Notes under the pieces: generated by a model
The model's input: only the letters and a program-made list of their open reading frames with translations
Database searches by the model: none
Told to the model about the DNA's origin: nothing
Made by a program: the position numbers and the translations under genes
Source: Aphanocapsa sp. GSE-SYN-MK-11-07L
Lineage (GTDB): Bacteria > Cyanobacteriota > Cyanobacteriia > Thermosynechococcales > Thermosynechococcaceae
NCBI GenBank assembly: GCA_019359715.1
Contig: JAHHGS010000022.1
Span: 62,001 to 126,000 of the forward strand
DNA length: 64,000 nt
Direction of reading: 5' to 3'
In this document: positions 9,523-29,613 of the stretch, piece after piece
Numbering within the stretch: the first letter of the stretch is position 1
Layout: each line of letters opens with the position of its first letter

Positions 9523-10365
9523 ATGAAAAGCCAAGATATTTCTGGTCAAGCAGAGTTAATTATAGAAGCGGGGCGGGCTGAGAAAGAGTATTGGAAAGAC
9601 TTGTGGCGCTACCGGGAGCTATTTTACTTTTTGGCCTGGCGAGATATCCTCGTCCGCTACAAACAAACCATCATTGGGATTGCTTGGGCTTTGATCCGAC
9701 CTTTCCTGACGATGGTTGTTTTTACGTTTGTATTCGGCAAATTAGCAAAACTGCCCTCGGAAGGAGCGCCTTACCCAATTTTAGTCTTCGCTGCCATGTT
9801 GCCCTGGCAATTCTTCTCGAATTCACTATCAGAGTGCAGCAACAGTCTAATTAGCAATGCCAACTTGATTTCCAAAGTTTACTTTCCGCGTTTGATTGTG
9901 CCTGTCAGCGCAGTCGTGGTTAGCTTTGTCGATTTCATGATTTCCGGGATAATCTTGATTGGGCTGATGGCTTGGTACGATTTTGTGCCTGGCTGGCGAA
10001 TTTTGACCTTGCCACTGTTTATTGTAATTGCATTTTTTGCTGCTACTGGAGCAGGGCTTTGGTTTGCAGCCCTGAACGTCGAGTATAGAGATTTTCGCTA
10101 TATTGTCCCATTTACTGTCCAGTTTGGTCTGTATATTTCACCCGTTGGATTTAGTAGTAGTATTGTGCCGGAGCAATGGCGCTTACTCTATGCTTTAAAT
10201 CCAATGGTTGGCGTAATTGATGGTTTTCGGTGGGCGATTTTAGGTGGAGAATCGACAATCTATTTACCTGGGCTTGCTCTATCTGTAGCCTTGGTCATTT
10301 TCTTACAGATAACTGGCATTTGGTACTTCCGCCGAATGGAACGGACATTTGCAGATGTAATTTAA
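9523..10365 (+). CDS. wzm: Polysaccharide ABC transporter permease (Wzm-like)
   Basis: ABC-2 type permease, 280 residues, with six predicted membrane segments. The N-terminal cytoplasmic part ELFYFLAWRDILVRYKQT is diagnostic of the Wzm/TagG/RfbD family, followed by GIAWALIRPFLTM and the conserved 'LPWQFFSNSL' stretch. It forms the membrane pore that exports undecaprenyl-linked polysaccharide, powered by the ATPase encoded next. The start of that gene follows within 15 bases of this stop, indicating one transcript. Confidence 0.95.
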   Translation: MKSQDISGQAELIIEAGRAEKEYWKDLWRYRELFYFLAWRDILVRYKQTIIGIAWALIRPFLTMVVFTFVFGKLAKLPSEGAPYPILVFAAMLPWQFFSNSLSECSNSLISNANLISKVYFPRLIVPVSAVVVSFVDFMISGIILIGLMAWYDFVPGWRILTLPLFIVIAFFAATGAGLWFAALNVEYRDFRYIVPFTVQFGLYISPVGFSSSIVPEQWRLLYALNPMVGVIDGFRWAILGGESTIYLPGLALSVALVIFLQITGIWYFRRMERTFADVI

Positions 10366-10380
10366 GTGGGAGCAACGCAG

Positions 10381-11664
10381 ATGTCTGATACTATCATTCG
10401 GGTTAAGAATTTAGGTAAGAAATACCTAATTAGTCATCAAGAAGAAGGCAAATATCGCTACAAAACCTTAAGAGATATTGTTACAGGTAGTCTTAGGTCC
10501 CTTGGCAAAAATTTGCTGCCAGCGAAGCAGGAAAAAAAGCTGCCGCTCAATCGCGAAGAATTTTGGGCTCTGAATGATGTTTCGTTTGAGATTAACCAAG
10601 GTGAAGCGATCGGCGTTATTGGTCGCAACGGGGCTGGAAAATCAACTCTCTTAAAGCTGTTAAGTCGAATTACCGAACCCTCAAGAGGTCAAATTGCCGT
10701 TAGAGGACGAGTAGCCAGTCTGTTGGAGGTAGGAACAGGCTTTCACCCTGAACTGACAGGCAGAGAAAACATCTATCTCAACGGTGCCATTTTAGGCATG
10801 GGTAGGCTGGAGATCAAGAAAAAATTCGACGAAATCGTTGCGTTTGCTGAAATTGAGCGATTTTTGGATACACCCGTTAAGCGCTACTCTTCTGGCATGT
10901 ATGTCCGTTTGGCTTTTGCGGTTGCCGCCCATCTAGAGCCAGAAATTTTGATTGTTGATGAGGTGCTAGCGGTCGGTGATGCAGCGTTTCAGAAGAAATG
11001 CTTGGGCAAAATGGGAGACGTAGCAACCAAGGAAGGGCGAACCGTTTTATTTGTTAGCCATAGTATGCAAGCGATCGCCCAGCTCACCCAACGTTCTATC
11101 CTCCTATACAAAGGCAACGTCCAGTTTGATGGCAAAACCGATCAAGCCGTTCGCTTATACATTGCTGGTCAAAAAGATGAGTCTGAGCCGCAGGGATATT
11201 ACCAAGCTCCATCTAACAAAAATGGTAATCATGTTGCTTGGGCGAAGGTGCATACCTCAGAGGGCGATGGCGTTCACTGCTGGGGGCGAGCGATCGCCTT
11301 TGAATTTGCTCTCTCCATCACTCAACCCCATGAAAGTTTGTGGTTTTCATTTCAAGTTATCAGCGCTCTTCAGCAACCGATTTCTATTTTTTGGTTTTAC
11401 GATCCGGAAGCTGCTTTTCGCCGTGAACCAGGAACATTTATCGTTCGATGCGAAATTCCTAAACTTAGGCTCTATATGGGTTCTTACACCCTAACCACCT
11501 GGTTTTCTGAGCGTCGTAGCGAAACCATGCTGGAAAACTTGCGGAATATTTGCCAGTTTGAAGTCGTCATGCATGAAATCGAGCGTCCAGAGTACCAATG
11601 GCAAGCGGACGAATGCACTTACTTAGAGGATGCATTTTGGCAATCGGCCGAAAAAATCGGGTAA
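10381..11664 (+). CDS. wzt: Polysaccharide ABC transporter ATP-binding protein with C-terminal carbohydrate-binding domain (Wzt-like)
   Basis: ATPase partner of the Wzm-like permease, 427 residues. Walker [10 protein letters not shown] (about 81-89), ABC signature in [11 protein letters not shown] (about 170) and Walker [14 protein letters not shown] (about 189) are intact. After residue 250 an extra domain of about 170 residues (from about [15 protein letters not shown]) matches the position and beta-rich character of Wzt C-terminal domains, which recognise the terminal modification of the glycan before export. ATG 10381 was chosen because GGGAG lies 8 bases upstream; the frame is open from a GTG at 10366. 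Confidence 0.94.
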
Positions 11665-11718: not shown

Positions 11719-12204
11719 ATGGCAATCAATAATGATGTTCAAATCGGAAAAAACGTTAAGATTTTCCACCCTGATCTCGTTAATCTCTACGGCTGCACGA
11801 TTGGGGACGAAACAAAGATTGGTGCCTTTGTTGAGATTCAGAAAAATGTTGTGGTTGGTAGTCGATGCAAAGTCTCCTCCCATAGCTTTCTGTGCGAAGG
11901 TGTTGTGATTGAAGACGAAGTATTTATTGGTCATGGCGTGATGTTTACCAATGATATTTATCCGCAAGCTACAAACGAAGACGGTAGCCTACAAGCTGAT
12001 ACTGACTGGCAGGTGGTTGAGACGCGGATCAAGCAAAGCGCTTCTATTGGCAGCAATGCGACTATTTTGCCAGGGCTGACGATTGGGAAGAAGGCACTGA
12101 TTGGAGCAGGAGCAGTCGTTACACGTGATATTCCTGATTACGCAATTGTCGTCGGTGTACCTGCCCGGGTAATTGGCGATGTCCGGAATACGAGCCAGAA
12201 TTAA
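11719..12204 (+). CDS. Hexapeptide-repeat N-acyltransferase (WbpD/WlbB-like)
   Basis: 161-residue left-handed beta-helix acyltransferase. Repeats such as IGDETKIGAFVEIQKNVVVG and the loop GHGVMFTNDIYPQA, then IGKKALIGAGAVVTRDIPDY and the C-terminal GVPARVIGD, fit UDP-2-acetamido-3-amino-2,3-dideoxyglucuronate N-acetyltransferases. With the Gfo/Idh dehydrogenase and DegT aminotransferase encoded downstream it would complete a WlbA-WlbC-WlbB type 3-amino-sugar pathway; the exact sugar is inferred. Confidence 0.85.
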   Translation: MAINNDVQIGKNVKIFHPDLVNLYGCTIGDETKIGAFVEIQKNVVVGSRCKVSSHSFLCEGVVIEDEVFIGHGVMFTNDIYPQATNEDGSLQADTDWQVVETRIKQSASIGSNATILPGLTIGKKALIGAGAVVTRDIPDYAIVVGVPARVIGDVRNTSQN

Positions 12205-13919: not shown

Positions 13920-14963
13920 ATGGAAAGTAATATTAATATCGGTGTGATTGGTTATGGCTATTGGGGCCCAAATCTCGTCAGGAATTTTGCCGAAATTCCA
14001 GGTGCCAAGGTAACCATGGTCAGCGACTTTAAGCCAGAGTTACTGGCTAAAGTTCAGGCACGATACCCAACCATTCAAGTCACAACCGACTGTCAAGACA
14101 TTTTTAATAGCGCCAGTATTGACGTAGTGACGATCGCTACGCCAGTTTCAACTCACTTTGACTTGGCGTTGAGAGCTTTGCAAGCAGGCAAGCATGTCTT
14201 TGTTGAAAAGCCAATCACTCCTACCGCAGAGCAAGCCCTGCGGCTGGTTGAAGAAGCCGAAAAGCGCAACCTGGTGCTGATGGTTGACCATACCTTTGCC
14301 TACACTGGGGCGGTGCGTAAAATGCGCGAGCTGGTTGACACAAATCAGATTGGCGACCTCTACTACTACGATTCAGTGCGCGTCAACTTGGGCTTATTTC
14401 AGCACGATGTCAGCGTGATTTGGGATTTGGCCGTGCACGACCTCTCAATCATGGACTATGTTTTACCCGCCCAGCCCTATGCTGTCTCAGCAACTGGGGT
14501 CAGTCACGTGCCAGGCGAACCAGAAAATTTGGCTTATTTGACCCTATTTTTCCCTGGCAATTTGATTGCCCACATTAATGTTAATTGGTTGGCACCCGTT
14601 AAAGTGCGTCGTACCCTCATTGGTGGCAGTCAGAAAATGATTGTTTATGATGATTTAGAGCCGAGCGAAAAAGTCAAAGTGTACGACCGCGGCATCACCG
14701 TCAATGGGCATAATTCACCGGAAAGGCTTTACCAGATGCTAATTGGCTATCGGGCGGGCGATATGTGGTCGCCTCATTTAGATGTAACCGAAGCACTCCG
14801 CACCGAAGGACTGCACTTGATTGACTGCGTTAAAAATGGCGATCGCCCAATCACAGATGGAACGGCTGGTTTGCGGGTCGTCAAGATTCTGGAAGCGGCG
14901 ACTCAATCGATCAAGCAGCATGGTCAAATGGTTGAACTAGATTTGGCAGAGGTAACTGTATGA
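13920..14963 (+). CDS. Gfo/Idh/MocA-family NAD(P)-dependent sugar dehydrogenase
   Basis: 347-residue oxidoreductase. The Rossmann motif GVIGYGYWGPN is at about residues 8-18, the family's EKP motif (HVFVEKPITPT) near 95, and a C-terminal alpha/beta substrate domain follows. WlbA/WbpB-type members oxidise C3 of a UDP-sugar acid, making the keto-sugar for the aminotransferase. The next gene overlaps it by four bases (ATGA), so the two are translationally coupled. Family certain; substrate inferred from neighbours. Confidence 0.92.
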   Translation: MESNINIGVIGYGYWGPNLVRNFAEIPGAKVTMVSDFKPELLAKVQARYPTIQVTTDCQDIFNSASIDVVTIATPVSTHFDLALRALQAGKHVFVEKPITPTAEQALRLVEEAEKRNLVLMVDHTFAYTGAVRKMRELVDTNQIGDLYYYDSVRVNLGLFQHDVSVIWDLAVHDLSIMDYVLPAQPYAVSATGVSHVPGEPENLAYLTLFFPGNLIAHINVNWLAPVKVRRTLIGGSQKMIVYDDLEPSEKVKVYDRGITVNGHNSPERLYQMLIGYRAGDMWSPHLDVTEALRTEGLHLIDCVKNGDRPITDGTAGLRVVKILEAATQSIKQHGQMVELDLAEVTV

Positions 14964-16069
14964 TTCCGTTTGTAGACCTAAAAGCTCAATATTTAAGCAT
15001 TAAAGATGAAATTGACCCGGCGGTTTTAAATCTGCTCGACAGCACCCAGTTTATTCTGGGCAGTGAGGTTGCAGCCCTGGAATCAGAATTTGCGGCCTAT
15101 TGCAATGCTGGTTCTGGGATTGCCGTCAACACAGGTACAAGCGCCCTGCATCTGGCGCTCTTAGCCGCCGGGATTGGGGCGGGAGATGAGGTAATTTCTG
15201 TTCCCCATACCTTTGTTGCCACCACTGCTGCCATCTGCTACACCGGCGCTAAACCCGTTTTTGTTGATATTGATCCGGTTTCCTACACGATCGATGTGAC
15301 TAAAATTGAAGCGGCGATTACCAGCCGCACGAAAGCAATTCTGCCGGTGCATTTATACGGTCAGCCTGCCGACATGGACCCGATTATGGAGATTGCCCGC
15401 CGCCATAATTTAGTCGTGATTGAAGATGCAGCCCAAGCCCATCGGTCTGAGTATAAAGGTCGGCGGGTCGGCAGCATTGGCGATATTGGCTGCTTTAGCT
15501 TTTACCCCGGCAAGAACTTAGGCGCCTATGGCGAAGGCGGCATGGTCGTCACCAGCAATCCTGACTACGATCGCACACTGCGGATGCTGCGAGACTGGGG
15601 GCAGGAAAAAAGGTATCACCATGTTCTCAAGGGCTACAACTACCGGATGGACGGCTTGCAAGGGGCAATTCTGCGGGTCAAGCTGCGTCACTTAGATGCT
15701 TGGACGGAAGCCAGACGTGCCCATGCCGTTCAGTACAATCAGCTTTTGGCTGGCTTGGATTTGGTTAGTCCGACTGCCATGCCCTACAGCTACCACGCTT
15801 ACCATGTTTATGTGGTGAGATCTGGCGATCGCGACACCCTCCAGCAAAAGCTGCAAGAGCAAGGGATTCAAACCGGCATTCATTATCCGATTCCGGTGCA
15901 TCTGCAAACTGCTTACGCCGATTTGGGCTACCAAGCCGGAGATTTCCCCCACACCGAGCAAGCGGCCAAAGAAGTGTTTTCGCTGCCCATGTATCCTGAA
16001 CTCACCCCAGCCCAAGTCCAGACAGTGGCTACAAGTTTACAAGGCATCCTGGCCAAAGTGGGTGTCTGA
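14960..16069 (+). CDS. DegT/DnrJ/EryC1/StrS aminotransferase
   Basis: 369-residue PLP-dependent nucleotide-sugar aminotransferase. MIPFVDLKAQYLSIK is the classical N-terminus; NTGTSALHLALLAAG contacts the cofactor phosphate; VIEDAAQAH holds the PLP-stacking Asp; CFSFYPGKNLGAYGEGG contains the Schiff-base Lys. It probably converts the 3-keto sugar made by the upstream dehydrogenase to a 3-amino sugar (WlbC/WbpE role). It overlaps the next gene by one base. Confidence 0.94.
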   Translation: MIPFVDLKAQYLSIKDEIDPAVLNLLDSTQFILGSEVAALESEFAAYCNAGSGIAVNTGTSALHLALLAAGIGAGDEVISVPHTFVATTAAICYTGAKPVFVDIDPVSYTIDVTKIEAAITSRTKAILPVHLYGQPADMDPIMEIARRHNLVVIEDAAQAHRSEYKGRRVGSIGDIGCFSFYPGKNLGAYGEGGMVVTSNPDYDRTLRMLRDWGQEKRYHHVLKGYNYRMDGLQGAILRVKLRHLDAWTEARRAHAVQYNQLLAGLDLVSPTAMPYSYHAYHVYVVRSGDRDTLQQKLQEQGIQTGIHYPIPVHLQTAYADLGYQAGDFPHTEQAAKEVFSLPMYPELTPAQVQTVATSLQGILAKVGV

Positions 16070-17088: not shown

Positions 17089-18063
17089 ATGACTAATGTC
17101 TTACTCGTCGGTCTTGGCACCACTACATTGAGCGCCTTAACCTCTTTGATCGCCAAGTGCAATGTCCAGGCATTGGTCAGAAACATTGAGCCTAACGTAG
17201 CTGATCCAGTTTTAGAACTGGCTCAACAGTCTGGTATTCCCATCTACTCTGATACCTCGCAGGCGCAAATTAAAGCGTTAATTTTGCAGGATCAGCCTGA
17301 TTGCGTCGTCGTTTCTTCCTATCATCAAATTCTGCCGCCAGAACTGATTCAACTCTCGACTTTTATCAATGTCCATTACTCACCCTTACCTCAATACCGG
17401 GGTCGGGCCAATGTGAATTGGGCCATGATTAACGATGAGCCAACTGCCGCAATTACGATCCATCGCATCTCACCCGATTTAGATGGCGGAAATATCTTAT
17501 TTCAGCAGCCGATTTCAATTCAGTTTGATGATACTATCGCCGACCTCTACGATCGCTTGAATCAAATTCAGCAACAGCATTTGGGAGACACGGTTGTCAA
17601 AGCCTTGAGTGGCTACCAAGGCTTGCTCCAAGATCAGACCGAAGCCACCTACTGCTGCACCCGTTTAGCAGAAGACGGTGAAATTAATTGGTCAGATTCA
17701 ACCCGCAAAATCGACTGTTTGATTCGGGCGCTGGTTGCTCCATTTCCAGGCGCTTACACCTATTTTCAAGGTCAACAAACGCGGATTTGGCGGGCCAAGC
17801 CGGTTGAGCATCCCCCCAACTATGTTGGTCGGATTCCCGGCAGGGTAATTGGGCGATCCAAAGCCGCCGGATTTGTCGATGTCCTAACTGGAGATGGCGT
17901 ACTGAGAATTTTTGAAGTTCAAATTGAAGGAGCAGAAAAAGCGATCGCTGCAACTGTGATCAAGTCTGTCAAGTCTACCCTAGGGTTACGTACCTCTGAT
18001 CTGCTAAAACGGATTCAAACCCTCGAACAACACCTTACAAAACTCCAAGAAAATGCAAAATAG
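17089..18063 (+). CDS. Formyltransferase (sugar N-formyltransferase-like, Fmt fold)
   Basis: 324-residue protein of the methionyl-tRNA formyltransferase/ArnA fold. The catalytic set is present: Asn and His in FINVHYSPLPQYRGR, and Asp in SPDLDGGNIL; VNWAMINDE is the usual following strand. A C-terminal domain begins near residue 205 (GEINWSDSTRKIDCLIRAL), as in Fmt-type proteins. Inside a 3-amino-sugar operon the likely role is transfer of a formyl group from N10-formyltetrahydrofolate to the amino sugar rather than to initiator tRNA; this is inference. Its end overlaps the next gene by 11 bases. Confidence 0.85.
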   Translation: MTNVLLVGLGTTTLSALTSLIAKCNVQALVRNIEPNVADPVLELAQQSGIPIYSDTSQAQIKALILQDQPDCVVVSSYHQILPPELIQLSTFINVHYSPLPQYRGRANVNWAMINDEPTAAITIHRISPDLDGGNILFQQPISIQFDDTIADLYDRLNQIQQQHLGDTVVKALSGYQGLLQDQTEATYCCTRLAEDGEINWSDSTRKIDCLIRALVAPFPGAYTYFQGQQTRIWRAKPVEHPPNYVGRIPGRVIGRSKAAGFVDVLTGDGVLRIFEVQIEGAEKAIAATVIKSVKSTLGLRTSDLLKRIQTLEQHLTKLQENAK

Positions 18064-19027
18064 TCGCGTATTAATTACTGGTGGTGCTGGTCTAGTTGGC
18101 TCCCACATTGCTGACCTGCTAGTCAAAGAAGAAGTGGCCGAGATTATTGTGCTCGACAACTTTACCCGTGGTTGCCTCGATAACCTAGCTTGGGCGAAAG
18201 AGCATGGATCGCTGATTTTGGTTGAAGGCGACATCCGCGACCAAAAAGTGCTGGCCGAGGTGATGCAAAATGTTGATACTGTCTTTCATCAAGCCGCGAT
18301 CCGGATTACTCAGTGCGCCGAAGAGCCGCGCTTGGCTTTAGAAGTGATGGCCGACGGCACGTTCAACGTCCTGGAAGCGGCAGTCAATGCTGGCGTCAAA
18401 AAAGTAGTTACTGCCTCCTCCGCTTCGGTCTACGGCATGGCAGAAGAATTTCCAACCACCGAGTCCCATCATCCCTACAACAACCGCACCCTTTACGGGG
18501 CAGCTAAAACATTTAACGAGGGCTTGTTTCGCAGCTTCTACGATAAGTATGGCTTAGACTACGTTGCCCTCCGCTACTTCAACGTTTACGGGCCGCGGAT
18601 GGATATTTACGGCGTCTATACAGAGGTACTGATTCGCTGGATGGATCGGATTGCCAACGGTCAACCGCCATTAATTTTTGGCGACGGCGAACAGACAATG
18701 GATTTTGTTTACATTGAAGATATCGCCAGAGCGAATATCCTGGCTGCTAAAGCTGACGCAACGGATGAGGTGTTTAACGTAGCTAGTGGAGTCGAAAGCA
18801 GCCTCAATGATTTGGCCGATGCTTTAGCCAAAGTGATGGGTTCTGATTTGCAGCCAGAATATGGCCCAGAACGCAAGGTCAACCCAGTGCAGCGGCGGTT
18901 AGCTGATGTCAGCAAAGCCAAGCAAATGCTGGGGTTTGAAGCCGAAGTCTCTCTAGAAGAAGGGCTGCGGCGGCTGGTGAGTTGGTGGTCTGAAAAGAAA
19001 CTCAAACCAGAAGCCAGCAGCGTTTAA
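18053..19027 (+). CDS. NAD-dependent nucleotide-sugar epimerase/dehydratase (extended SDR)
   Basis: 324-residue extended SDR protein. ITGGAGLVGSHI is the NAD-binding motif, ASSASVYGMAEE contains the catalytic Ser, and YGAAK the YxxxK pair; RYFNVYGPRMD and FVYIEDIARAN are typical of UDP-glucose 4-epimerase-like enzymes. It starts inside the 3' end of the formyltransferase gene, so the two are coupled. It is the last gene of the operon 13920-19027. Confidence 0.93.
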   Translation: MQNSRVLITGGAGLVGSHIADLLVKEEVAEIIVLDNFTRGCLDNLAWAKEHGSLILVEGDIRDQKVLAEVMQNVDTVFHQAAIRITQCAEEPRLALEVMADGTFNVLEAAVNAGVKKVVTASSASVYGMAEEFPTTESHHPYNNRTLYGAAKTFNEGLFRSFYDKYGLDYVALRYFNVYGPRMDIYGVYTEVLIRWMDRIANGQPPLIFGDGEQTMDFVYIEDIARANILAAKADATDEVFNVASGVESSLNDLADALAKVMGSDLQPEYGPERKVNPVQRRLADVSKAKQMLGFEAEVSLEEGLRRLVSWWSEKKLKPEASSV

Positions 19028-19068: not shown

Positions 19069-20256
19069 TTAGGGCGCAGGCACTTGAGCTGCGATCGCTC
19101 GCCCAATTTCCAGCGCGGAAGTGGCGGCTGGTGAAGGCGCATTACAGACATGAATCGAATGCCGACCATTCACAATCAGAAAATCATCCACCAGATTGCC
19201 GTTGGGTAAAAGGGCTTGCGCCCGCACCCCGGCATGACTGGGCACCAGATCTTCAGATTGAATCTCTGGAATCAACTGCTGCAAACTGTGGACAAAGGCT
19301 GGCTTCAGCCACGATCGCACCATTTCTTGCAGCCCTTCCTTGGCGTGTTTAGTTGCCAAGCGCCAGAAGCCTGGATAGGTCATCACTTCGGCAAAATCGC
19401 GCAGGTTAAAATCGGTTTTCTTGTAGCCTTCCCGCTTCCAGCTCAGGACGGCGTTTGGCCCCGCGTGGACATTGCCATCAATCATCCGGGTAAAGTGCAC
19501 GCCCAAAAAAGGAAAACTTGGGTTTGGCACTGGGTAGATTAAATTTTTGACCAGGTAGCGCTTGTCTGGCTTTAGCTCGTAGTACTCGCCCCGAAAGGGA
19601 ACAATCTTAGCTTCTGGATCAACCTGGCCTAACTTAGCAACGCGATCGCTGTGCAGTCCCGCACAGTTGATCACAAATTTAGCTTCAAAGCTGCCTTGAT
19701 TGGTAGCTAAAATCTGTCCGTTGGATGTTTCAATCAGCCGCTTTAGCTTCGTGTTGAGATGCAATTCACCACCCTGAGCTTTCACTTGTTCTACCATCAC
19801 CTGGCAAACCTGGTGATAGTCGGCAATTCCAGTTGAGAAGACCCGAATTCCCTCCAAGCAGCGGACATGGGGTTCCAGTTCTTTCACCTCTTCAGCCGTG
19901 ATTCGAGCGACGGGCATTTCATTGGCAAGTCCGCGCTGATAAAGGTTTTCCAGCAGCGGCAATTCTTGGGGCTGAGTGGCGATGATCACCTTGCCACAAA
20001 CCTCGTGCCGAATGTTGTGCTCCTGACAAAAGCGCACCATCGAGGCGCTACCATCACGGCAAAACTTAGCCTTAAAGCTGCCTGGTTTATAGTAGATGCC
20101 AGAATGAATTACACCGCTGTTATTTCCCGTTTGGTGAAATGCCCACTCGCTCTCTTTTTCGATCACCAGAATTTTTGCTTGGGGGTGACGTTGCCCGATC
20201 GTCATTGCCGTCGATAAACCAACAATGCCACCGCCGATAATTGCTATGTCAAACAC
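19069..20256 (-). CDS. lhgO: L-2-hydroxyglutarate oxidase
   Basis: FAD-dependent oxidoreductase of the DAO superfamily, 395 residues from the chosen start. FDIAIIGGGIVGLSTA is the dinucleotide-binding motif, followed by EKESEWAFHQTGNNSGVIH and YYKPGSFKAKFC, both characteristic of LhgO. It converts L-2-hydroxyglutarate to 2-oxoglutarate at the membrane. The frame is open to 20439, but the family begins with the FDIAIIGG segment, so GTG 20256 was chosen. It is convergent with the epimerase gene and probably unrelated to polysaccharide synthesis. Confidence 0.88.
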   Translation of the reverse strand: MFDIAIIGGGIVGLSTAMTIGQRHPQAKILVIEKESEWAFHQTGNNSGVIHSGIYYKPGSFKAKFCRDGSASMVRFCQEHNIRHEVCGKVIIATQPQELPLLENLYQRGLANEMPVARITAEEVKELEPHVRCLEGIRVFSTGIADYHQVCQVMVEQVKAQGGELHLNTKLKRLIETSNGQILATNQGSFEAKFVINCAGLHSDRVAKLGQVDPEAKIVPFRGEYYELKPDKRYLVKNLIYPVPNPSFPFLGVHFTRMIDGNVHAGPNAVLSWKREGYKKTDFNLRDFAEVMTYPGFWRLATKHAKEGLQEMVRSWLKPAFVHSLQQLIPEIQSEDLVPSHAGVRAQALLPNGNLVDDFLIVNGRHSIHVCNAPSPAATSALEIGRAIAAQVPAP

Positions 20257-20773
20257 GGGTTTTGATCTAAAGGTTTCAGCCCTTATGTGAACTACCCGAC
20301 GCTGATTGCTCGGCAATCCAGCACGGGCTTCCCAATTCATCGGCAACAGCCTCCAGAACTCCGTAGTTCTATTGGTCTGACATTGCCTCCAAGGGCAGAA
20401 GTCCTGGTTCCCAAGACCCAAATTTTGTAAAACAATCATGACTGACTGCTACGATCGTTTAATTTTCACGATCCTGATTGCTTGGTTTTTGCAATCTTTG
20501 CAGCGTTTATGTTGTACGGGAATTATTGCACTTATGGCGATTCGTTGCCAACCCTACGCTCCTCCGAAGCAGTTAGAGCGCGGGGCTTCCCCGCTATCAG
20601 CTAACACTGCTGCGAGGTTTGATGCAACTCAGGAGATTTTCTTAAAAATTAGGGCAATCTAGATCAAAGCTGGGTGATGGAAAAGACTTGAATTGAATTG
20701 AGAGACCGACTGATCCCAAGGGAGTCCTCAATCTGTCAGGGTTTTCAGTAACTATAATTAGGAGTTAATCAAC
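20257..20773. other. Divergent intergenic region
   Basis: About 517 bases between the oxidase start and the next aminotransferase. It contains a short GC-rich hairpin at about 20580-20594 (GCGGGG-CTT-CCCCGC). Open frames on either strand here lack ribosome-binding sites and family signals. Confidence 0.5.
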
Positions 20774-21988
20774 GTGTCTGAGGTGAAATCATTTATCCCG
20801 ATCGCCATCCCTTGCATGGGCGAACCAGAGGCTACCGCCGCTCAGCGGGTAATTATGTCTGGCTGGGTGACGCAAGGCCCAGAGGTGGCGGCGTTTGAGC
20901 AAGAGTTTGCTGCCTATGTTGGGGCAGCCCATGCCTGTGCCGTTTCAAATTGCACAACAGCGTTGCACCTAGCTCTGCTGGCCGTTGGGGTTAAGCCAGG
21001 GGATGAAGTGATCACCGTCAGTCACTCCTACATTGCTACAGCCAACAGCATTCGCTACTGTGGGGCGACGCCGGTCTTTGTAGACATTGAGCCGCAAAGC
21101 TACAATATCAATCCCCTGTTGATTGCCGATGCGATTACAGCTCGCACCCGCGCCATTCTGGTCGTTCACCAAATGGGGATGCCCTGTGACTTAAAGCCAA
21201 TTTTAGAGATTGCTCACCGCCACAATCTACCTGTAATTGAAGATGCTGCCTGCGCGATCGGCAGTGAAGTTCGATTAAACGATCAGTGGGAGAAAATTGG
21301 CCGGGCCCACGGCGATATTGCCTGTTTTTCTTTTCACCCCCGAAAAGTGATTAGCACCGGTGACGGTGGCATGTTGACCACCAACAACCCAGAGTGGGAT
21401 CAGCAGTTCCGACTCTGGCGGCAGCATGGGATGAGCGTCCCGGACACAGTGCGCCACGGTGCCAAACAAGTAATCTTTGAGTCCTATCCGATGCTGGGCT
21501 ATAACTACCGAATGACCGACATTCAGGCCGCTGTCGGCCGAGAACAGCTCAAACGACTGCCAGAAATTGTCGATCGCCGCCGCTATCTGGCCCAGCGCTA
21601 CCAAGCTGACCTAGCGGATTTGCCCGGTTTGAAGCTGCCAACCGAACCTACCTGGGCCAAAAGCAACTGGCAAAGCTTCTGCGTCCGGCTGCCAGAGCAA
21701 TCTGACCAACTGAAAGTGATGCAGGCAATGCTAGATGCTGGGATTGCCACCCGACGCGGGATTATGTGCGCCCATCGGGAGCCAGCCTACCAAATTGAAA
21801 CCTGGACTTGCGGGGGTAAGAATTCACCCTGCCAATGTCAGCCAGGAAGCTGCGATCGCCTGCTTGAAAGTGAACAAGCTCAGGATCAAGCTATCTTGCT
21901 TCCACTGTTTCATCAAATGACAGAAAGCCAGCAAGACTACGTGGTTGACACCCTCAAAACCGCCTGTCTGAGTCCGGCGATCGCCTAA
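20774..21988 (+). CDS. DegT/DnrJ/EryC1/StrS aminotransferase with Cys-rich insert
   Basis: 404-residue PLP-dependent sugar aminotransferase of the perosamine-synthetase-like branch. IPIAIPCMGEPEATAAQRVI forms the N-terminus, NCTTALHLALLAVG binds the cofactor phosphate, VIEDAACAIG holds the PLP-stacking Asp, and CFSFHPRKVISTGDGG carries the Schiff-base Lys. Near residue 345 an insert with CGG...CQCQPGSC contains four Cys within about 16 residues, unusual for the family and possibly metal-binding. GTG 20774 is preceded by AGGAG. It is separate from the first aminotransferase operon and may serve a second amino sugar. Confidence 0.9.
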   Translation: MSEVKSFIPIAIPCMGEPEATAAQRVIMSGWVTQGPEVAAFEQEFAAYVGAAHACAVSNCTTALHLALLAVGVKPGDEVITVSHSYIATANSIRYCGATPVFVDIEPQSYNINPLLIADAITARTRAILVVHQMGMPCDLKPILEIAHRHNLPVIEDAACAIGSEVRLNDQWEKIGRAHGDIACFSFHPRKVISTGDGGMLTTNNPEWDQQFRLWRQHGMSVPDTVRHGAKQVIFESYPMLGYNYRMTDIQAAVGREQLKRLPEIVDRRRYLAQRYQADLADLPGLKLPTEPTWAKSNWQSFCVRLPEQSDQLKVMQAMLDAGIATRRGIMCAHREPAYQIETWTCGGKNSPCQCQPGSCDRLLESEQAQDQAILLPLFHQMTESQQDYVVDTLKTACLSPAIA

Positions 21989-22514: not shown

Positions 22515-25500
22515 ATGTTAGTTGATCCTAGTTCCTTGAGTGGTTTCCAGCTTAGTTCGGCATCCTCCTCGATCATTCCACAGACGGTTGCTTTTATTGA
22601 TGCGAATATTGCCGATGCCTCCCAGGTGATGGCTGGGGTGCAAGCAGACGTGAAAGTCTTGCTCGACCCCAGCCGCGATGGCATCGCCCAAATTACGGAA
22701 ACCCTCCAACAGTTCAATAATCTAACAGGCATCAACATTTTCTCCCACGGCAGCGTTGGACAGTTGCAGTTAGGAAGCAGTGTTCTGAGTAGCGCTTCTT
22801 TAGGGCAGTATGCAACTGAAGTTGAACGCTGGAAAGCATCCTTGAGTGCTGATGCTGACATCTGGTGCTACGGCTGCAATGTGGCAGAAGGAGAAGTGGG
22901 TCAAGCTTTCGTGCAGGGGTTAAGCAGCTTGACGGGAGCTGATATTGCTGCCTCGACCGACCTAACCGGAGCCGGAGGAGATTGGCTGCTAGAGTACGCC
23001 ACCGGCGAAATTGAGACAACCTCTCCCTTGAGCGATGCTCTAATCGAAGGCTATCAAGGGCAATTGGCGACCCTGTTCACCAGCCAAACCCCCAGCCAAC
23101 CCAACAAGACAGATGGCACGGGCAGTGCGGGCGATTACGAGTTGGGCATGCAGTTCACCAGCACCAAAGCGGGCACCCTCAATGCGATTCGCTACTACAA
23201 GGCGGCCGGTGAAACGGGGAGCCATGTCGGTAAAATCTGGTCGAGTACTGGCACGCAACTAGCACAAGTTACCTTTAGCAACGAAACCGCATCGGGATGG
23301 CAGCAGCAAGCTTTGAGTACGCCTATCGCGATCGCCGCTGGCACCACGTATATTGTGTCGGTGAACGTGAACACGCATTACGCCATTAGCCCGAATGGGT
23401 TCAACAGCCCGATCAGCAATGGCGATTTGAGGGGCAGCAATGGCGTCTTTAATCTTGCGCCTGGGTTATTCCCCACCCAGTCGTGGAACAATAGCAACTA
23501 CTTCCGAGATGTTGACTTTACCCCAAATCCGACTGGCACCAATAACGTAGGCACAGTGGGTGTCAGTGGAACACCGACCCAAAACCAAACCCTGACGGCC
23601 AATGTCGCAGATGCGAATGGATTAACTGGCGCCACGATTAACTACCAGTGGCAGCAGCTTAGTGGCGGCACTTGGAGCAATATTAGCGGTGCGACTGCCC
23701 GCACCTTGACGCTGCAGCAAGCTCAGGTAGGGCGACAGGTGCGAGTCAATGCCACCTATACGGATGCGTTGGGCACTAGTGAGAATATCTTCAGCCCCGC
23801 TACAACGGCGATCGCCAACGTCAATGATGCGGGAGTCGTTGCGATCGCTGGCACGCCAGCCCAAAACCAAACTTTAACGGCGAATGTAGCAGATGTCGAT
23901 GGGCTAACCGGCGTCACAATCAGCTATCAATGGCAGAGCAGCACAAACGGTACCACTTGGAGCAATATTAGCGGTGCGACTGGGCAAAACTTAGCCCTCG
24001 ACAGTAGCTATGTCGGGCAGCAAGTAAGGATAAGTGCTACCTACACTGACGTCTTGGGGGGAAGCGAAAATATTTTGAGTCCGGCCAGTAGCACTATCAC
24101 AGCCCCTGTCCAGACACAGAGTTTATTTTCACCAACCACAACTCCGGCGCTACTCAATGAGACGGATGGAGCGGGTAGTGCCGGTGACTATGAACTTGGG
24201 ATGGAGTTCAGAACTTCTAAGTCTGGCAAAATTAACGCAATTCGCTATTTCAAGTCCCCCAACGAAACGGGCAGCCATACTGGCCGGATCTGGTCAAATA
24301 CAGGTGAATTGTTAGCCAGTGTGGCCTTCACGAACGAAACAGCCTCAGGTTGGCAGGAGCAAGCGTTAGCAACCTCATTAGCTATCAACGCCAACACGAC
24401 CTACATCGTTTCTGTTAACACAAACAGCTATTATGTCTCTACAAGCAATGGGTTAGCGGCAACAGTCACTAACGGTAACATCAGTGCTATTGCTGACGGA
24501 AGTAACGGAGTTTTCAACCCCAATCCTAGCGCTTTCCCAACCCAATCTTGGCAAAACTCTAACTATTTCCGAGATATCGTTTTTGCGGCCAATCCACCAG
24601 CTGCAAATATTCCCGGTACAGTTGCGCTGAACGGAACAGCAACAGAAAATCAAACCTTGACCGCCAATGTTAGCGATGGTAATGGCACAACTGGAGTCAC
24701 GATCAATTACCAGTGGCAGCAACTGAATGGCACTACCTGGACGGATATTAGCGGGGCGACGGCTCAAACCCTAACCTTGGGTAATGCTCAGTCGAGCAAG
24801 CAAGTGCGGGTAAGAGCCACCTACACTGATAGCGACGGTAACAACGAAAATATCTTCAGTGCTGCTACTACTGCGGTCGTCAACGTCAATGATGTAGGCG
24901 CGATCGCCGTTCGAGGCACAACAGGCATCGGCGAAGTCTTAACGGCAAACGTGATTGATGGCGATGGATTTACAACCGTCAACTACCAATGGCAGCAATT
25001 GAATGGCAGCACTTGGAGCAATATTAGTGGCGCTACTGGGCGATCCCTAGCCTTGACCAATGCTTTACTTGGCAAGCAACTGCGCGTAAGTGCCAGCTAC
25101 ACCGATAGCTTTGGCAGCAGCGAAAATGTCACGAGTTCTACGACCAGCCCAGTTGTGACAACCTATGAAACCGTCTTTTCACTGGCAGATATGCCTAACT
25201 TCACCAATATTACTGATGGAGTTGGGGTGTCCTATGAGCTAGGTCTCAAATTCAGAAGCGTCACAGCAGGTGTGGTTCAAGCAATTCGCTACTGGAAGGC
25301 TCCTAGCGAAACAGGCACCCATGTTGGAAAAATTTGGTCGTCTACAGGGCAGTTGCTGGCAAGTGTCACTTTTACGAATGAAACTTCTTACGGTTGGCAA
25401 GAGCAGGCATTAGCAACTCCATTCCGCATTCAAGCTAATACGACCTACACTATTTCAGTCAATGCCAACAGCTATTATGCTTTTACCTCTAACCGACTAA

Positions 25501-27734
25501 CCAGTGTAGTTGATAGTGGTGATATGACCACTGTCTCCAATGGCGGGAACGGTGGAGGCGGTGGTGTGTTGGGTTCGATCAATGCGCTACCGACTCAATC
25601 GTTCCAAAACTCAAACTACTATCGCGATCTGGTGTTTGCAGCCGATCAGCCCAGCGGCAACGATTTAGGAGTCGTCTCGACGAGCGGTAGCGTCACTGAG
25701 AATCAGACCCTGACTGCAAATGTGGCTGACGCTGATGGATTGAGCGGCGTGACGTTTAATTATCAATGGCAGCAGTTTCAAGATAATGCCTGGGTTAATA
25801 TTGCCGGAGCAACCCAGCGCACCTTCAAACTTGGGGATGACCAAGTAGGCAAGCAGATTCGAGTCAGGGCAACCTATGTCGATGCCTTGGGCACCTACGA
25901 AAATAGGCTGAGTGTGGCAACAGCGGCAGTGACTAATGTGAATGATGTTGGGAATGCCGTGCTGCGGGGCAGTGCAGTGGTTGGCCAAGTCCTGAAGGCA
26001 ATTGTCTTAGACTCCGATGGACTGACAAATGTACTGATTAACTACCAGTGGCAGCAGTTTGTCAATAATGCCTGGACGAATATTGCTGGTGCGGTTGGGC
26101 AAGCCTTGACGCTGGGTGCTTCCCTGGCAGGCAGACAGATTAGAGCTTTTGCTTCTTACACTGACAACAACAATACTTTTGAGAGTCTCTTTACCTTTGG
26201 GACAACAATCGGCACTCAAAACCGGATTGTAATTGAGAATCAAAAGCAAGGCTCGACAGGTTGGAAAATTACCAATCAGGCGACTGATAGCCAAGTGGCA
26301 GGCTATGCTGATGCCACCAGTGTGAATGCTGGTGAAACAGTTGGTCTGAAAGTCTCCTTGGGGCAAACTGGTACGTTCAAAATTGATACCTATCGTCTGG
26401 GCTGGTACGGTGGGGCTGGTGGGCGACTGATGGACAGTAGCGGCACGTTGAATGGCTTTACCCAGGCTGGTTTTACAGTTGATCCAACCACCAGAATGGT
26501 TGAGACTAATTGGCAAACTTCTTATAACCTACAGGTGAGTAGCGACTGGGTGAGTGGGCTTTATCTGGCCAAGGTAACACTGACAACAGGTCCGAACGCA
26601 GGCAAGCAAACTCAAATTTGGTTTGTCGTTCGCAATGACTTCCAACCCGCAGCGATCGGCTTCAACAATGCCTTCAGTACAATGGCAGCCTACAACAACT
26701 ATGGCGGCTACAGCTTGTACGATTTCAACAGTAATAATAGTCAACGAGCCTACAAGGTTTCTTACGATCGCCCCTTCGCCCAATCAAATGACCAATCTGG
26801 TGAAGGCAGCAACAATGTAATGACTTGGGAATACAACATGATCCGTTGGCAAGAATCCCAAGGATACGATGTCTCGTATTTTACCAACACTGATCTAACG
26901 ATCAATCCACTGCAACTCCACTCTTACAATGTCTACGAGTCGGTAGGCCACGACGAATACTGGTCGATGGAAGAGCGCAACAATATCGAGGATGCGCGGG
27001 ACTCGTTGACCCCGGTCAACATCGCAATTTTCTCCGCGAATACAGGCTACTGGCGGGTGCGGTACGAAGATTCTAGCTCTGGTCAAGACAATCGTGTAAT
27101 AGTTGCCTACAAAGACACATCTGGGGTAGGCAGTGGGGTTGCACTCGACCCAATTGCCCAAACGAATCCTTACGAAGCAACAACTACTTTCCGTAGCCCT
27201 GAGCTGAATCGACCTGAAAACGCCTTATTAGGGGTTATGTACACTGGCGATATTGGTGCGACGGGTCAATTCTACGGCGGTTTTGACTATGTGGTTTCTA
27301 ATAGTTCCGATTCTTACTTTGCCAATACTGGCCTCCAAAATGGCGACTCATTGCGGGGATTGGTCGGCTACGAGTGGGATTCAGTCACAACTGGCTTCTG
27401 CTGTACGCAATGTCGGCAGGGCAGTGGGATTGTTAATAACGGTCATACGCCGCTTAACTTAGTCGTTTTGTCTGGATCGGCCGTTACTCCTGTTGGTGGT
27501 TTGCCAGTCTTGCCGCCGGGCACAGACACTAATATCTCAAACTCGATTCGCTATACAGCCGGTAGTGGAGCTGAAGTCTTCAATACTGGCTCTATTCAAT
27601 GGATGTGGGGATTAGACAGCTATGGACTAGATGATCCACGCACTGATATTCGGGCCCAGCAGATTGCCACCAATGTGTTGACCAGGATGGGGGCAAGACC
27701 TCAAACTCCCTCTTCTGGGATTGTTCTAGCTTGA
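22515..27734 (+). CDS. Giant secreted-type protein: DUF4347, triplicated DUF4082-Ig-Ig, dimethylformamidase-beta-like C-terminus
   Basis: 1739 residues from ATG 22515 (frame open to a TTG at 22494). About 1-175 is DUF4347, with a conserved His (IFSHGS) and Cys (CYGCNVA). A three-domain unit then occurs three times. DUF4082 modules lie at about 187-338, 536-694 and 886-1042 (YELGM/YELGL start, NSNYFRD or NSNYYRD end). Each is followed by two Ig-like repeats of about 90 residues starting TLTANVxDxxG (or a variant) with xYQWQ, at about 348-529, 699-879 and 1051-1232. About 1236-1739 resembles the C-terminal domain of N,N-dimethylformamidase beta subunits (FRLGWYGG-like FKIDTYRLGWYGG, GHDEYWSMEERN). 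No classical signal peptide is seen. It sits amid polysaccharide genes, suggesting a surface protein. Confidence 0.9.
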   Translation: MLVDPSSLSGFQLSSASSSIIPQTVAFIDANIADASQVMAGVQADVKVLLDPSRDGIAQITETLQQFNNLTGINIFSHGSVGQLQLGSSVLSSASLGQYATEVERWKASLSADADIWCYGCNVAEGEVGQAFVQGLSSLTGADIAASTDLTGAGGDWLLEYATGEIETTSPLSDALIEGYQGQLATLFTSQTPSQPNKTDGTGSAGDYELGMQFTSTKAGTLNAIRYYKAAGETGSHVGKIWSSTGTQLAQVTFSNETASGWQQQALSTPIAIAAGTTYIVSVNVNTHYAISPNGFNSPISNGDLRGSNGVFNLAPGLFPTQSWNNSNYFRDVDFTPNPTGTNNVGTVGVSGTPTQNQTLTANVADANGLTGATINYQWQQLSGGTWSNISGATARTLTLQQAQVGRQVRVNATYTDALGTSENIFSPATTAIANVNDAGVVAIAGTPAQNQTLTANVADVDGLTGVTISYQWQSSTNGTTWSNISGATGQNLALDSSYVGQQVRISATYTDVLGGSENILSPASSTITAPVQTQSLFSPTTTPALLNETDGAGSAGDYELGMEFRTSKSGKINAIRYFKSPNETGSHTGRIWSNTGELLASVAFTNETASGWQEQALATSLAINANTTYIVSVNTNSYYVSTSNGLAATVTNGNISAIADGSNGVFNPNPSAFPTQSWQNSNYFRDIVFAANPPAANIPGTVALNGTATENQTLTANVSDGNGTTGVTINYQWQQLNGTTWTDISGATAQTLTLGNAQSSKQVRVRATYTDSDGNNENIFSAATTAVVNVNDVGAIAVRGTTGIGEVLTANVIDGDGFTTVNYQWQQLNGSTWSNISGATGRSLALTNALLGKQLRVSASYTDSFGSSENVTSSTTSPVVTTYETVFSLADMPNFTNITDGVGVSYELGLKFRSVTAGVVQAIRYWKAPSETGTHVGKIWSSTGQLLASVTFTNETSYGWQEQALATPFRIQANTTYTISVNANSYYAFTSNRLTSVVDSGDMTTVSNGGNGGGGGVLGSINALPTQSFQNSNYYRDLVFAADQPSGNDLGVVSTSGSVTENQTLTANVADADGLSGVTFNYQWQQFQDNAWVNIAGATQRTFKLGDDQVGKQIRVRATYVDALGTYENRLSVATAAVTNVNDVGNAVLRGSAVVGQVLKAIVLDSDGLTNVLINYQWQQFVNNAWTNIAGAVGQALTLGASLAGRQIRAFASYTDNNNTFESLFTFGTTIGTQNRIVIENQKQGSTGWKITNQATDSQVAGYADATSVNAGETVGLKVSLGQTGTFKIDTYRLGWYGGAGGRLMDSSGTLNGFTQAGFTVDPTTRMVETNWQTSYNLQVSSDWVSGLYLAKVTLTTGPNAGKQTQIWFVVRNDFQPAAIGFNNAFSTMAAYNNYGGYSLYDFNSNNSQRAYKVSYDRPFAQSNDQSGEGSNNVMTWEYNMIRWQESQGYDVSYFTNTDLTINPLQLHSYNVYESVGHDEYWSMEERNNIEDARDSLTPVNIAIFSANTGYWRVRYEDSSSGQDNRVIVAYKDTSGVGSGVALDPIAQTNPYEATTTFRSPELNRPENALLGVMYTGDIGATGQFYGGFDYVVSNSSDSYFANTGLQNGDSLRGLVGYEWDSVTTGFCCTQCRQGSGIVNNGHTPLNLVVLSGSAVTPVGGLPVLPPGTDTNISNSIRYTAGSGAEVFNTGSIQWMWGLDSYGLDDPRTDIRAQQIATNVLTRMGARPQTPSSGIVLA

Positions 27735-27972
27735 TTGACACGAAAACTGCTAACAGAGAGTTAGAATGCTTTTTACAAGGATCCTGACGTTTTTCTCTCT
27801 AAGATTGGCAGGAGATACAAAAGCAGATTTTGGAGGTGTTAGAGGTCAAAAAGCACTCAAAGTCCCTTAATGCTGCAAAGCGAAAAGCCGTGTAAGTTTC
27901 CCTTAAAGATTTAAGGACAGTTTGTTAAGTTTAAGAGTGGCTTTGGGAACAATAAGTCAAGAATGGATAAAA

Positions 27973-29613
27973 ATGACTGGGATAATGCCTGACGATACTT
28001 TTAGCATCTGGCGAGAAGAAGGTAGTCGCCTGATCCAGCAACATCATCAAGAATTCTCTCGCTTAGTAACTCAGGCAAAAGACTTCACAATACTTGGTAA
28101 GTATGATCTAGCAGCCGTCTATGGAGAGATGGCTGCCCTTTATGCAGCATGCCAACATTGCGGTTTTTTCGTTAATACTGAATTAGAGGAAATTCTGCTC
28201 AGCATCGGCAGGAAAGCCATATCAACCAACACTAATCTTAAAAGGAGTCAACCACTTCAAGAAACACCAAAATACATACTGCATGTCGCAAGTTCTGTCC
28301 AATCTATTGGTGGACTTTCTAGGATGATTTGGCGCTGGATTCAGCAAGATAGCGATCGCTCCCACTCCCTTGTTCTAACGCGACAGCCAGGGGGGAAAGA
28401 TGTGCCGAAAATTCTAAGAGATTCAGTGATTAATAGTGGCGGGAAGATTTACAAGCTAAACGAGACTATAGGCAGCCTAATCGCTTGGGCAAGGCGACTA
28501 CGAGAAATTGCCGCAGTAGCAGATTTAGTTATATTGCATGTATATAACCACGATGTTATTCCAATCATTGCTTTTGCCAATAAAGAAGAACATCCTAGCC
28601 CCCCAATTATCTTATTAAATCACGCAGATCATCTATTTTGGCTAGGAAAAAGTATCAGTGATATCGTTGCTAATCTTCGTGAGTCTGGTAGATGTCTATC
28701 AATGGAACGGAGAGGCATTGAAGTCGATCGCAATTTACTACTACCAATCATTATAGAACCTACTCAAAGATCGCTTCCCCGCTCAGAAGCCAAGAAAAAG
28801 CTTGGTCTTCCAGAAGACAGTATTGTGTTGCTTTCGATCGCAAGGGCACTCAAATATAGAACAATTAATGCAACTACTTTTGCAGATATTCATGTTCCCT
28901 TACTTATACAATATCCAAATACAGTTCTAGTTGTAATTGGTCCTGATAGTAGAGAAAATTGGGCAGATGCCATTTATAAAACTGGGGGGAGAGTTATTGT
29001 ATACCCAGAACGAGATGATACGGCTATATTTCACCAGGCTGCTGACATTTACGTTGATTCGTTTCCCATTAACTCAACAACATCAATGTTAGAGGCAGGA
29101 AGCTATGGTGTACCGCTCGTCAGCCTTTACCCTTACTCTGATGCATCTAAAATCTTGGGCGCTGATATGCCTGGACTAACTAAAAGCTTGATTTATGTAC
29201 ATAATCTTAGGGACTATACTGCCGTTCTGTCACGTTTAGTCGAAGATGAGAAACATCGGCTTTCCCTTGGAGAAGCAACTAGCAAGGAAATTGCAGAAGT
29301 ACATTGGGGGGAAAATTGGCAATGTTCCTTAAATGAATTATACGAACGTGCTATCACTACGCCTAGGCTAACTTCTATAACGGAATCAACAGACCAGATG
29401 TTTTTTGGTGAGCCTGATGTCTACCTACCAATCCTTAATAAATACGACTTCGACATGGACTCATTGATGCAGGCTCATCTCTCAATTATGCCACTTGAGC
29501 AGAAGTTGTCCTACTCGATTAAATATATGATTAAAAGTGGTTCTCGCCTCTCTTTCAAACAACTATTACCCGAATGGTTGAGTGTTCGGTTATTAAAATT
29601 GCTCATGAAATAA
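27973..29613 (+). CDS. GT-B type glycosyltransferase with helical N-terminal extension
   Basis: About 546 residues. The first 100 residues are helical and carry no signal (LVTQAKDFTILGKYDLAAVY), then a GT4-like catalytic region begins at YILHVASSVQSIGGLSRM and ends around YVDSFPINSTTSMLEAGSYG, where the EAGSYG Glu matches the usual GT4 donor-site Glu. It is more divergent than its neighbours. The start is uncertain: ATG 27973 was preferred over ATG 27985 or upstream GTG/TTG codons; none has a clear ribosome-binding site. It probably adds one sugar of the exported polymer. Confidence 0.75.
   Translation: MTGIMPDDTFSIWREEGSRLIQQHHQEFSRLVTQAKDFTILGKYDLAAVYGEMAALYAACQHCGFFVNTELEEILLSIGRKAISTNTNLKRSQPLQETPKYILHVASSVQSIGGLSRMIWRWIQQDSDRSHSLVLTRQPGGKDVPKILRDSVINSGGKIYKLNETIGSLIAWARRLREIAAVADLVILHVYNHDVIPIIAFANKEEHPSPPIILLNHADHLFWLGKSISDIVANLRESGRCLSMERRGIEVDRNLLLPIIIEPTQRSLPRSEAKKKLGLPEDSIVLLSIARALKYRTINATTFADIHVPLLIQYPNTVLVVIGPDSRENWADAIYKTGGRVIVYPERDDTAIFHQAADIYVDSFPINSTTSMLEAGSYGVPLVSLYPYSDASKILGADMPGLTKSLIYVHNLRDYTAVLSRLVEDEKHRLSLGEATSKEIAEVHWGENWQCSLNELYERAITTPRLTSITESTDQMFFGEPDVYLPILNKYDFDMDSLMQAHLSIMPLEQKLSYSIKYMIKSGSRLSFKQLLPEWLSVRLLKLLMK

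Follow-up and report, generated by a model that had tools for sequence, protein, structure and literature searches.

The window, by which is meant the whole analysed stretch of 64,000 nucleotides of Aphanocapsa sp. DNA, contains a polysaccharide locus with an open reading frame (ORF) for a very long, multidomain protein. The genes are arranged in the order ABC exporter, hexapeptide acyltransferase, Gfo/Idh dehydrogenase, DegT aminotransferase, formyltransferase, epimerase, LhgO, a second DegT and the ORF, followed by many glycosyltransferases (Table 1). An earlier sequence-only reading had assigned the ORF to a polysaccharide locus, and the exporter, the sugar cassette and the glycosyltransferases found around it agree with that assignment.

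Table 1. Genes, domains and predicted active-site residues in the window
Feature	Position	Strand	Remarks
ABC polysaccharide exporter: ABC-2 permease (Wzm-like) and ATPase with Wzt_C	9523..11664	+	52-83% identical copies in several related loci
Hexapeptide acyltransferase	11719..12204	+	Nearest solved structures: WxcM-like, LPS acetyltransferase (3mqg), QdtC
Gfo/Idh/MocA sugar dehydrogenase, cassette	13920..14963	+	
DegT-type aminotransferase 1	14960..16069	+	Near QdtB, WbpE
Fmt/ArnA-like N-formyltransferase	17089..18063	+	Hexapeptide acyltransferase at the same place in relatives
NAD-dependent epimerase/dehydratase, cassette	18053..19027	+	
L-2-hydroxyglutarate oxidase (LhgO), inside cassette	19069..20439	-	605.7 bits, cut-off 299
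DegT-type aminotransferase 2, directly upstream of the ORF	20774..21988	+	
Whole ORF, 1,739 residues, DUF4347-[DUF4082-Ig-Ig]x3-DMFA2_C	22515..27734	+	ORF translation, Pfam
DUF4347, residues 25-184, conserved His-Gly and Cys	22587..23066	+	Pfam, 28-row alignment
Unit 1, DUF4082-Ig-Ig, residues 187-535	23073..24119	+	Pfam, pairwise alignment, motifs
Unit 2, DUF4082-Ig-Ig, residues 536-885	24120..25169	+	Pfam, pairwise alignment, motifs
Unit 3, DUF4082-Ig-Ig, residues 886-1260	25170..26294	+	Pfam, pairwise alignment, motifs
DMFA2_C amidohydrolase-like domain, residues 1290-1701	26382..27617	+	Pfam, PDB profile, AF2 model, Foldseek
Predicted Fe ligands Y1393 (DMFase Y399) and Y1402 (Y440)	26691..26720	+	Alignment; Y1402 by manual SxY realignment
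H1479 (H519) and predicted Fe ligand E1481 (E521), motif GHDEYWS	26949..26957	+	Alignment
N1509 (N547, proposed oxyanion stabiliser)	27039..27041	+	Alignment
E1620 (E657, proposed catalytic base)	27372..27374	+	Alignment
Glycosyltransferase group 1, recurring beside or near DMFA2 genes	27922..29613	+	
Second DUF4082 protein: PA14-DUF4082-Calx-beta x2-pectate-lyase-like	42647..46630	-	

Organization of the locus and of the protein

The affinities of the first aminotransferase and of the hexapeptide enzyme point to an acylated amino sugar as the likely product of the cassette. Several relatives have a second hexapeptide acyltransferase in the position of the window's formyltransferase, which, judged by eye, retains the NxH...D motif. 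The N-formyltransferase is specific to the window locus among the loci examined. No neighboring ORF in the related loci matches it, which rules out a general tie between DMFA2 and N-formyltransferases; three further genes with formyltransferase domains are situated elsewhere in the genome. LhgO, homologs of which adjoin rhizobial DMFA2 genes, might possibly recycle 2-hydroxyglutarate from the Gfo/Idh enzyme. LhgO takes its name from the L form, however, whereas Pseudomonas aeruginosa WbpB yields the D form (PMC8651671).

The ORF starts with an ATG shortly preceded by a GGCGGA motif, and its boundaries are those given in the sequence-only reading. The domains proposed there, namely DUF4347, three DUF4082 and a C terminus of the DMFA2 type, were all found in a Pfam search. 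DUF4347 (PF14252, E 6e-52) and the three copies of DUF4082 (PF13313, E 2e-117) score above the curated thresholds, and DMFA2_C (PF20254, E 8e-92) reaches 308.9 bits with a cut-off of 27. In an alignment of 28 DUF4347 sequences the Cys is invariant and the His of the His-Gly pair nearly so, a combination that is reminiscent of the cysteine peptidases of clan CD (caspase-like). A profile search of the Protein Data Bank (PDB) with DUF4347 returned only a weak match, to another DUF4347 protein. The AlphaFold2 (AF2) model of DUF4347 together with unit 1 is poor (pLDDT 60, pTM 0.31), and its Foldseek matches are generic Ig assemblies.

All four DUF4082 domains of the genome belong to this locus. The fourth, in the pectate-lyase-like protein, is 67% identical to that of unit 1, compared to 54 - 62% among the three units, and this closeness suggests a common ligand, which could plausibly be the locus's own polymer. 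Because the model of DUF4082 is poor, glycan binding by this domain is without structural support.

The repeat units and their variation

When the protein is split at residues 187, 536 and 886, the resulting units align pairwise over their full length, with 60.5% identity between units 1 and 2 (E 1e-153), 53% between units 2 and 3 (E 5e-129) and 53% between units 1 and 3 (E 2e-117). The repetition at the level of the whole unit, with boundaries at these residues, is thus as had been predicted. Each unit contains two Ig-like repeats, and six YQWQ motifs are distributed over the three units. A blastp comparison of the whole protein with itself gave zero off-diagonal matches, for which the BLAST containment filter is suspected. 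At the DNA level, units 1 and 2 are 65% identical across about 1 kb and no tandem repeat was called in the ORF. The amplification therefore appears to be old in the Aphanocapsa genome.

The closest counterpart, a protein of Calothrix sp. NIES-4101 (L008:4218-9380), has the same domain order and also three units, a DMFA2 domain 58% identical to that of the window, the same cassette genes upstream and the same glycosyltransferase downstream. For the greater part of their length its units, which have a period of exactly 1,050 bp, are 100% identical at the DNA level, indicating recent amplification or homogenisation. The Calothrix array ends in an Ig of a separate, terminal type, which the other proteins have as well. 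Another cyanobacterium (L055) has a single unit between DUF4347 and DMFA2_C, as counted from YELG and YQWQ motifs, and relatives lacking DUF4347 contain one or two DUF4082. The number of units is thus variable. The window and Calothrix proteins may have been triplicated separately, or an old common triplication may have been homogenised later in Calothrix.

The combination of DUF4082 with DMFA2_C recurs, as annotated by NCBI, in Rhizobium, Paenarthrobacter, Methylobacterium and others. Such proteins are frequent among rhizobia and Actinobacteria, and those examined have 2 - 4 DUF4082 each. Two of them, RL_RS26640 and RL_RS26650 on plasmid pRL9 of Rhizobium johnstonii 3841, also contain Ig/cadherin-like domains; the six-gene cassette is again close by, together with lhgO and a type I transporter. 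Their order is reversed, the enzyme coming first and the repeats following, and their DMFA2 domains are about 34 - 35% identical to that of the window. The architecture is recurrent and not unique, and the earlier opinion that the triplication and the domain combination are unexplained was overstated in view of the Calothrix, L055, rhizobial, Paenarthrobacter and Methylobacterium proteins.

Fold and active site of the DMFA2_C domain

A plain phmmer search of the PDB with the whole protein gave no match, and a profile was required. The profile built from 12 relatives matches N-acetyl-(R)-β-phenylalanine acylase (8huy, 1e-11) and dimethylformamidase (DMFase; 6lvb, 2e-7). The AF2 model of the domain, calculated from 33 sequences, has a pLDDT of 83 and a pTM of 0.88, and the same two enzymes are its top two Foldseek matches (acylase, E 9e-18, TM 0.69; DMFase, E 1e-16, TM 0.59). 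Profile, model and Foldseek search thus agree in relating the fold to that of DmfA2, as suggested previously.

In DMFase the iron is bound by Y399, Y440 and E521, and H519, N547 and E657 are required for activity (PMC7686228). The window domain has counterparts of all six (Table 1). Five of these follow from the HMMER alignment, whereas Y1402 was equated with Y440 by shifting an SxY motif by hand across a long gap. The six counterparts are invariant in 12 of 12 close relatives and are present in 29 - 33 of the 33 rows of the wider set. The exceptions are a truncated sequence (L018), one in which the domain is reversed or mis-sliced (L053) and, for Y1402 only, two distant members (L065 and L066). 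In the window protein, E1620 is directly followed by 15 inserted residues with a CC..C pattern (27384-27428, within SVTTGFCCTQCRQGSGIV), which the relatives lack. This insertion is situated in a low-confidence loop of the model, and the window copy could be altered by it. Nevertheless, the predicted catalytic competence of the domain is well supported by the alignment and the model, and the 'enzymatic head' of the sequence-only reading can be retained as a prediction that is based on a DMFA2-type domain with the complete catalytic set.

The large subunit of Paracoccus DMFase (6lvb; PMC7686228) resembles the window domain also in the N-terminal GY..SV.xGE strand region. The two are about 16% identical in the structural alignment, and the window protein lacks a segment of about 260 residues, corresponding to DMFase residues about 42 to 337, the middle domain of the large subunit. 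Unlike DMFase, it carries DUF4347 and the DUF4082-Ig units and is encoded in a polysaccharide locus; no gene for a DMFase small subunit was recognised among the Pfam-annotated neighbors. The acylase (8huy and 8i5a), which is an N-deacylase and the best match by both fold and profile, shares motifs of the AYxNY, TY, THPEY and GNGFYW types with the window domain. It acts on a small molecule, is larger, has an extra segment at the same place and has no stalk. Both solved relatives cut N-acyl or N-formyl amides.

A paralogue of the domain without DUF4082 is found on another contig of the same genome (C119; L067:2956-4947, minus strand), where a second copy of the window's glycosyltransferase follows it. 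Two of its catalytic motifs are separated by an unusual insertion of about 64 residues.

The repeats might suggest that the protein is a structural or adhesive component of the matrix, in which the DUF4082-Ig units bind and crosslink polysaccharide and catalysis is secondary or lost. The repeated Ig-like and DUF4082 units, varying in number from 1 to 3 in cyanobacteria and with up to 4 DUF4082 in rhizobia, would suit such a role, and a precedent is provided by the type I-secreted Rap cadherin-like proteins of rhizobia (PMC9298526). Nevertheless, this explanation is improbable, considering that all six catalytic residues are kept and that the enzyme domain persists without DUF4082, for example in L058, L067 and L100.

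Gene linkage, export and proposed function

The association of DMFA2_C with the cassette was examined by using the window proteins as probes and fetching the flanks of each locus. In many cyanobacteria the six-gene acylamino-sugar cassette adjoins genes of this DMFA2 subfamily, and the order acyltransferase-Gfo/Idh-DegT-acyltransferase-epimerase-DegT is found beside DMFA2 in Rhizobium as well. Rhizobium leguminosarum WSM1689, R. indicum and R. johnstonii 3841 have this order with the DMFA2 genes a few kb further, and the conserved cassette genes of WSM1689 are 64 - 69% identical to those of the window. Of the 22 close-subfamily loci, 15 have two or more cassette or export genes nearby, compared with 0 of the 9 distant-subfamily loci (Fisher p 8e-4). 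Of the 15 genomes that carry the Gfo/Idh gene (at least 70% identity; 386 cyanobacterial genomes sampled), 11 also carry DMFA2_C (p 7e-13). Both p-values are overstated, since they ignore the common descent of the loci, and the thresholds for identity and distance were picked after the tables were seen. The two genes are within 20 kb of each other in 8 of the 11 co-occurring genomes. Neither requires the other: 7 of the 22 close-subfamily loci are without a cassette gene in the neighborhood, and DMFA2_C is absent from 4 of the 15 Gfo/Idh genomes. Copies of DMFA2 that lack polysaccharide neighbors also occur. A gene of about 330 residues was also observed mostly beside or close to the DMFA2 gene (L010:9462-10490, L014:9364-10359, L050:10722-11705 and ten other loci). 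Three members were scanned against Pfam and one against NCBIfam without a match, and the gene was not found in the window.

The patchy distribution of the gene, which occurs in 0 of 57 sampled relatives, with DMFA2_C in 21 of the 386 genomes of the phylum, together with the occurrence of the cassette without DMFA2_C, could be taken to mean that it is an accessory gene hitchhiking in exchangeable polysaccharide islands, with no functional tie to the amino sugar. That the adjacency is common to cyanobacteria and rhizobia, and is so close in most of the co-occurring genomes, makes such a chance association very unlikely. More can be said for a secreted amidase that acts on small or scavenged amides, serves nitrogen acquisition and is in a surface-polysaccharide locus only because its stalk anchors it to the coat. 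The solved relatives act on dimethylformamide and N-acetyl-β-phenylalanine, and the distant DMFA2 subfamily is found outside polysaccharide loci, as are copies from Streptomyces or Methylobacterium. However, conservation of a sugar cassette beside the gene across phyla would be unexpected if the substrate had nothing to do with the sugar, and this function is therefore considered unlikely, if still deserving appreciable weight. The gene neighbors shared by distant bacteria suggest instead that the protein may trim amide groups off the sugar coat.

In this proposed role the protein would be exported. An N-terminal Sec signal is not evident by eye in the window protein or in the other cyanobacterial members, several of which begin directly with DUF4082, and no export gene for the window protein was identified beside it within the window. 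These N-termini would fit a cytoplasmic enzyme that acts on a nucleotide sugar or nascent glycan before export. Against this, a make-up of Ig, cadherin and DUF4082 domains is typical of secreted proteins, and homologs in rhizobia and Actinobacteria have export-type N-termini or adjoin a type I transporter. The rhizobial L102 and L103 have GG-type N-termini (by eye), and genes for a peptidase-domain ABC transporter and HlyD adjoin them, which suggests that they are exported by a type I system that cleaves off a leader. One Paenarthrobacter and one Streptomyces homolog have N-termini that appear by eye to be Sec- or Tat-like. A cytoplasmic function is thus distinctly improbable, and surface display of the window protein is plausible. 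The N-termini of L010, L011, L014, L016, L050 and L059, members without a Sec-like signal, have in common a short conserved motif resembling EILIAQAQ, which is possibly a leader.

The explanation put forward here, tentatively and with somewhat less than even confidence, is that the protein is an exported mononuclear-iron amidohydrolase, which edits the polysaccharide of its own locus and is held there by the DUF4082-Ig units. The C-terminal domain would bind Fe(III) between two tyrosines and one glutamate and would hydrolyse an amide, most likely the one that joins an N-acetyl or N-formyl group to an amino sugar in the polymer. Glycan binding would fall to the DUF4082-Ig units, a multivalent stalk with a copy number that differs between species. 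More doubtful is the wider proposition that the cassette-linked DMFA2_C proteins constitute a new class of polysaccharide N-deacylases or N-deformylases with a two-tyrosine, one-glutamate iron site, in which DUF4082 would be a carbohydrate-binding module for the same polymer. In Aphanocapsa, with the formyltransferase in place of the second acyltransferase, the enzyme may remove N-formyl groups. The polysaccharide de-N-acetylases PgaB and IcaB (carbohydrate esterase family 4) remove N-acyl groups from exported polymer. Their fold and metal site are unrelated, and the comparison concerns the proposed role alone.

In the literature searched, no paper joins dimethylformamidase, polysaccharide and cyanobacteria, and a single one mentions DUF4082. 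Many of the DUF4082/DMFA2_C proteins of cyanobacteria, rhizobia and Actinobacteria carry a name derived from a solvent-degrading enzyme, which probably misdescribes them. If they do edit surface polysaccharides, two uncharacterised families, DUF4082 and this branch of DMFA2, would acquire a function, and glycan de-N-acylation would gain a new chemistry. There would also be a testable tie to biofilm formation and symbiosis, for instance in Rhizobium johnstonii 3841.
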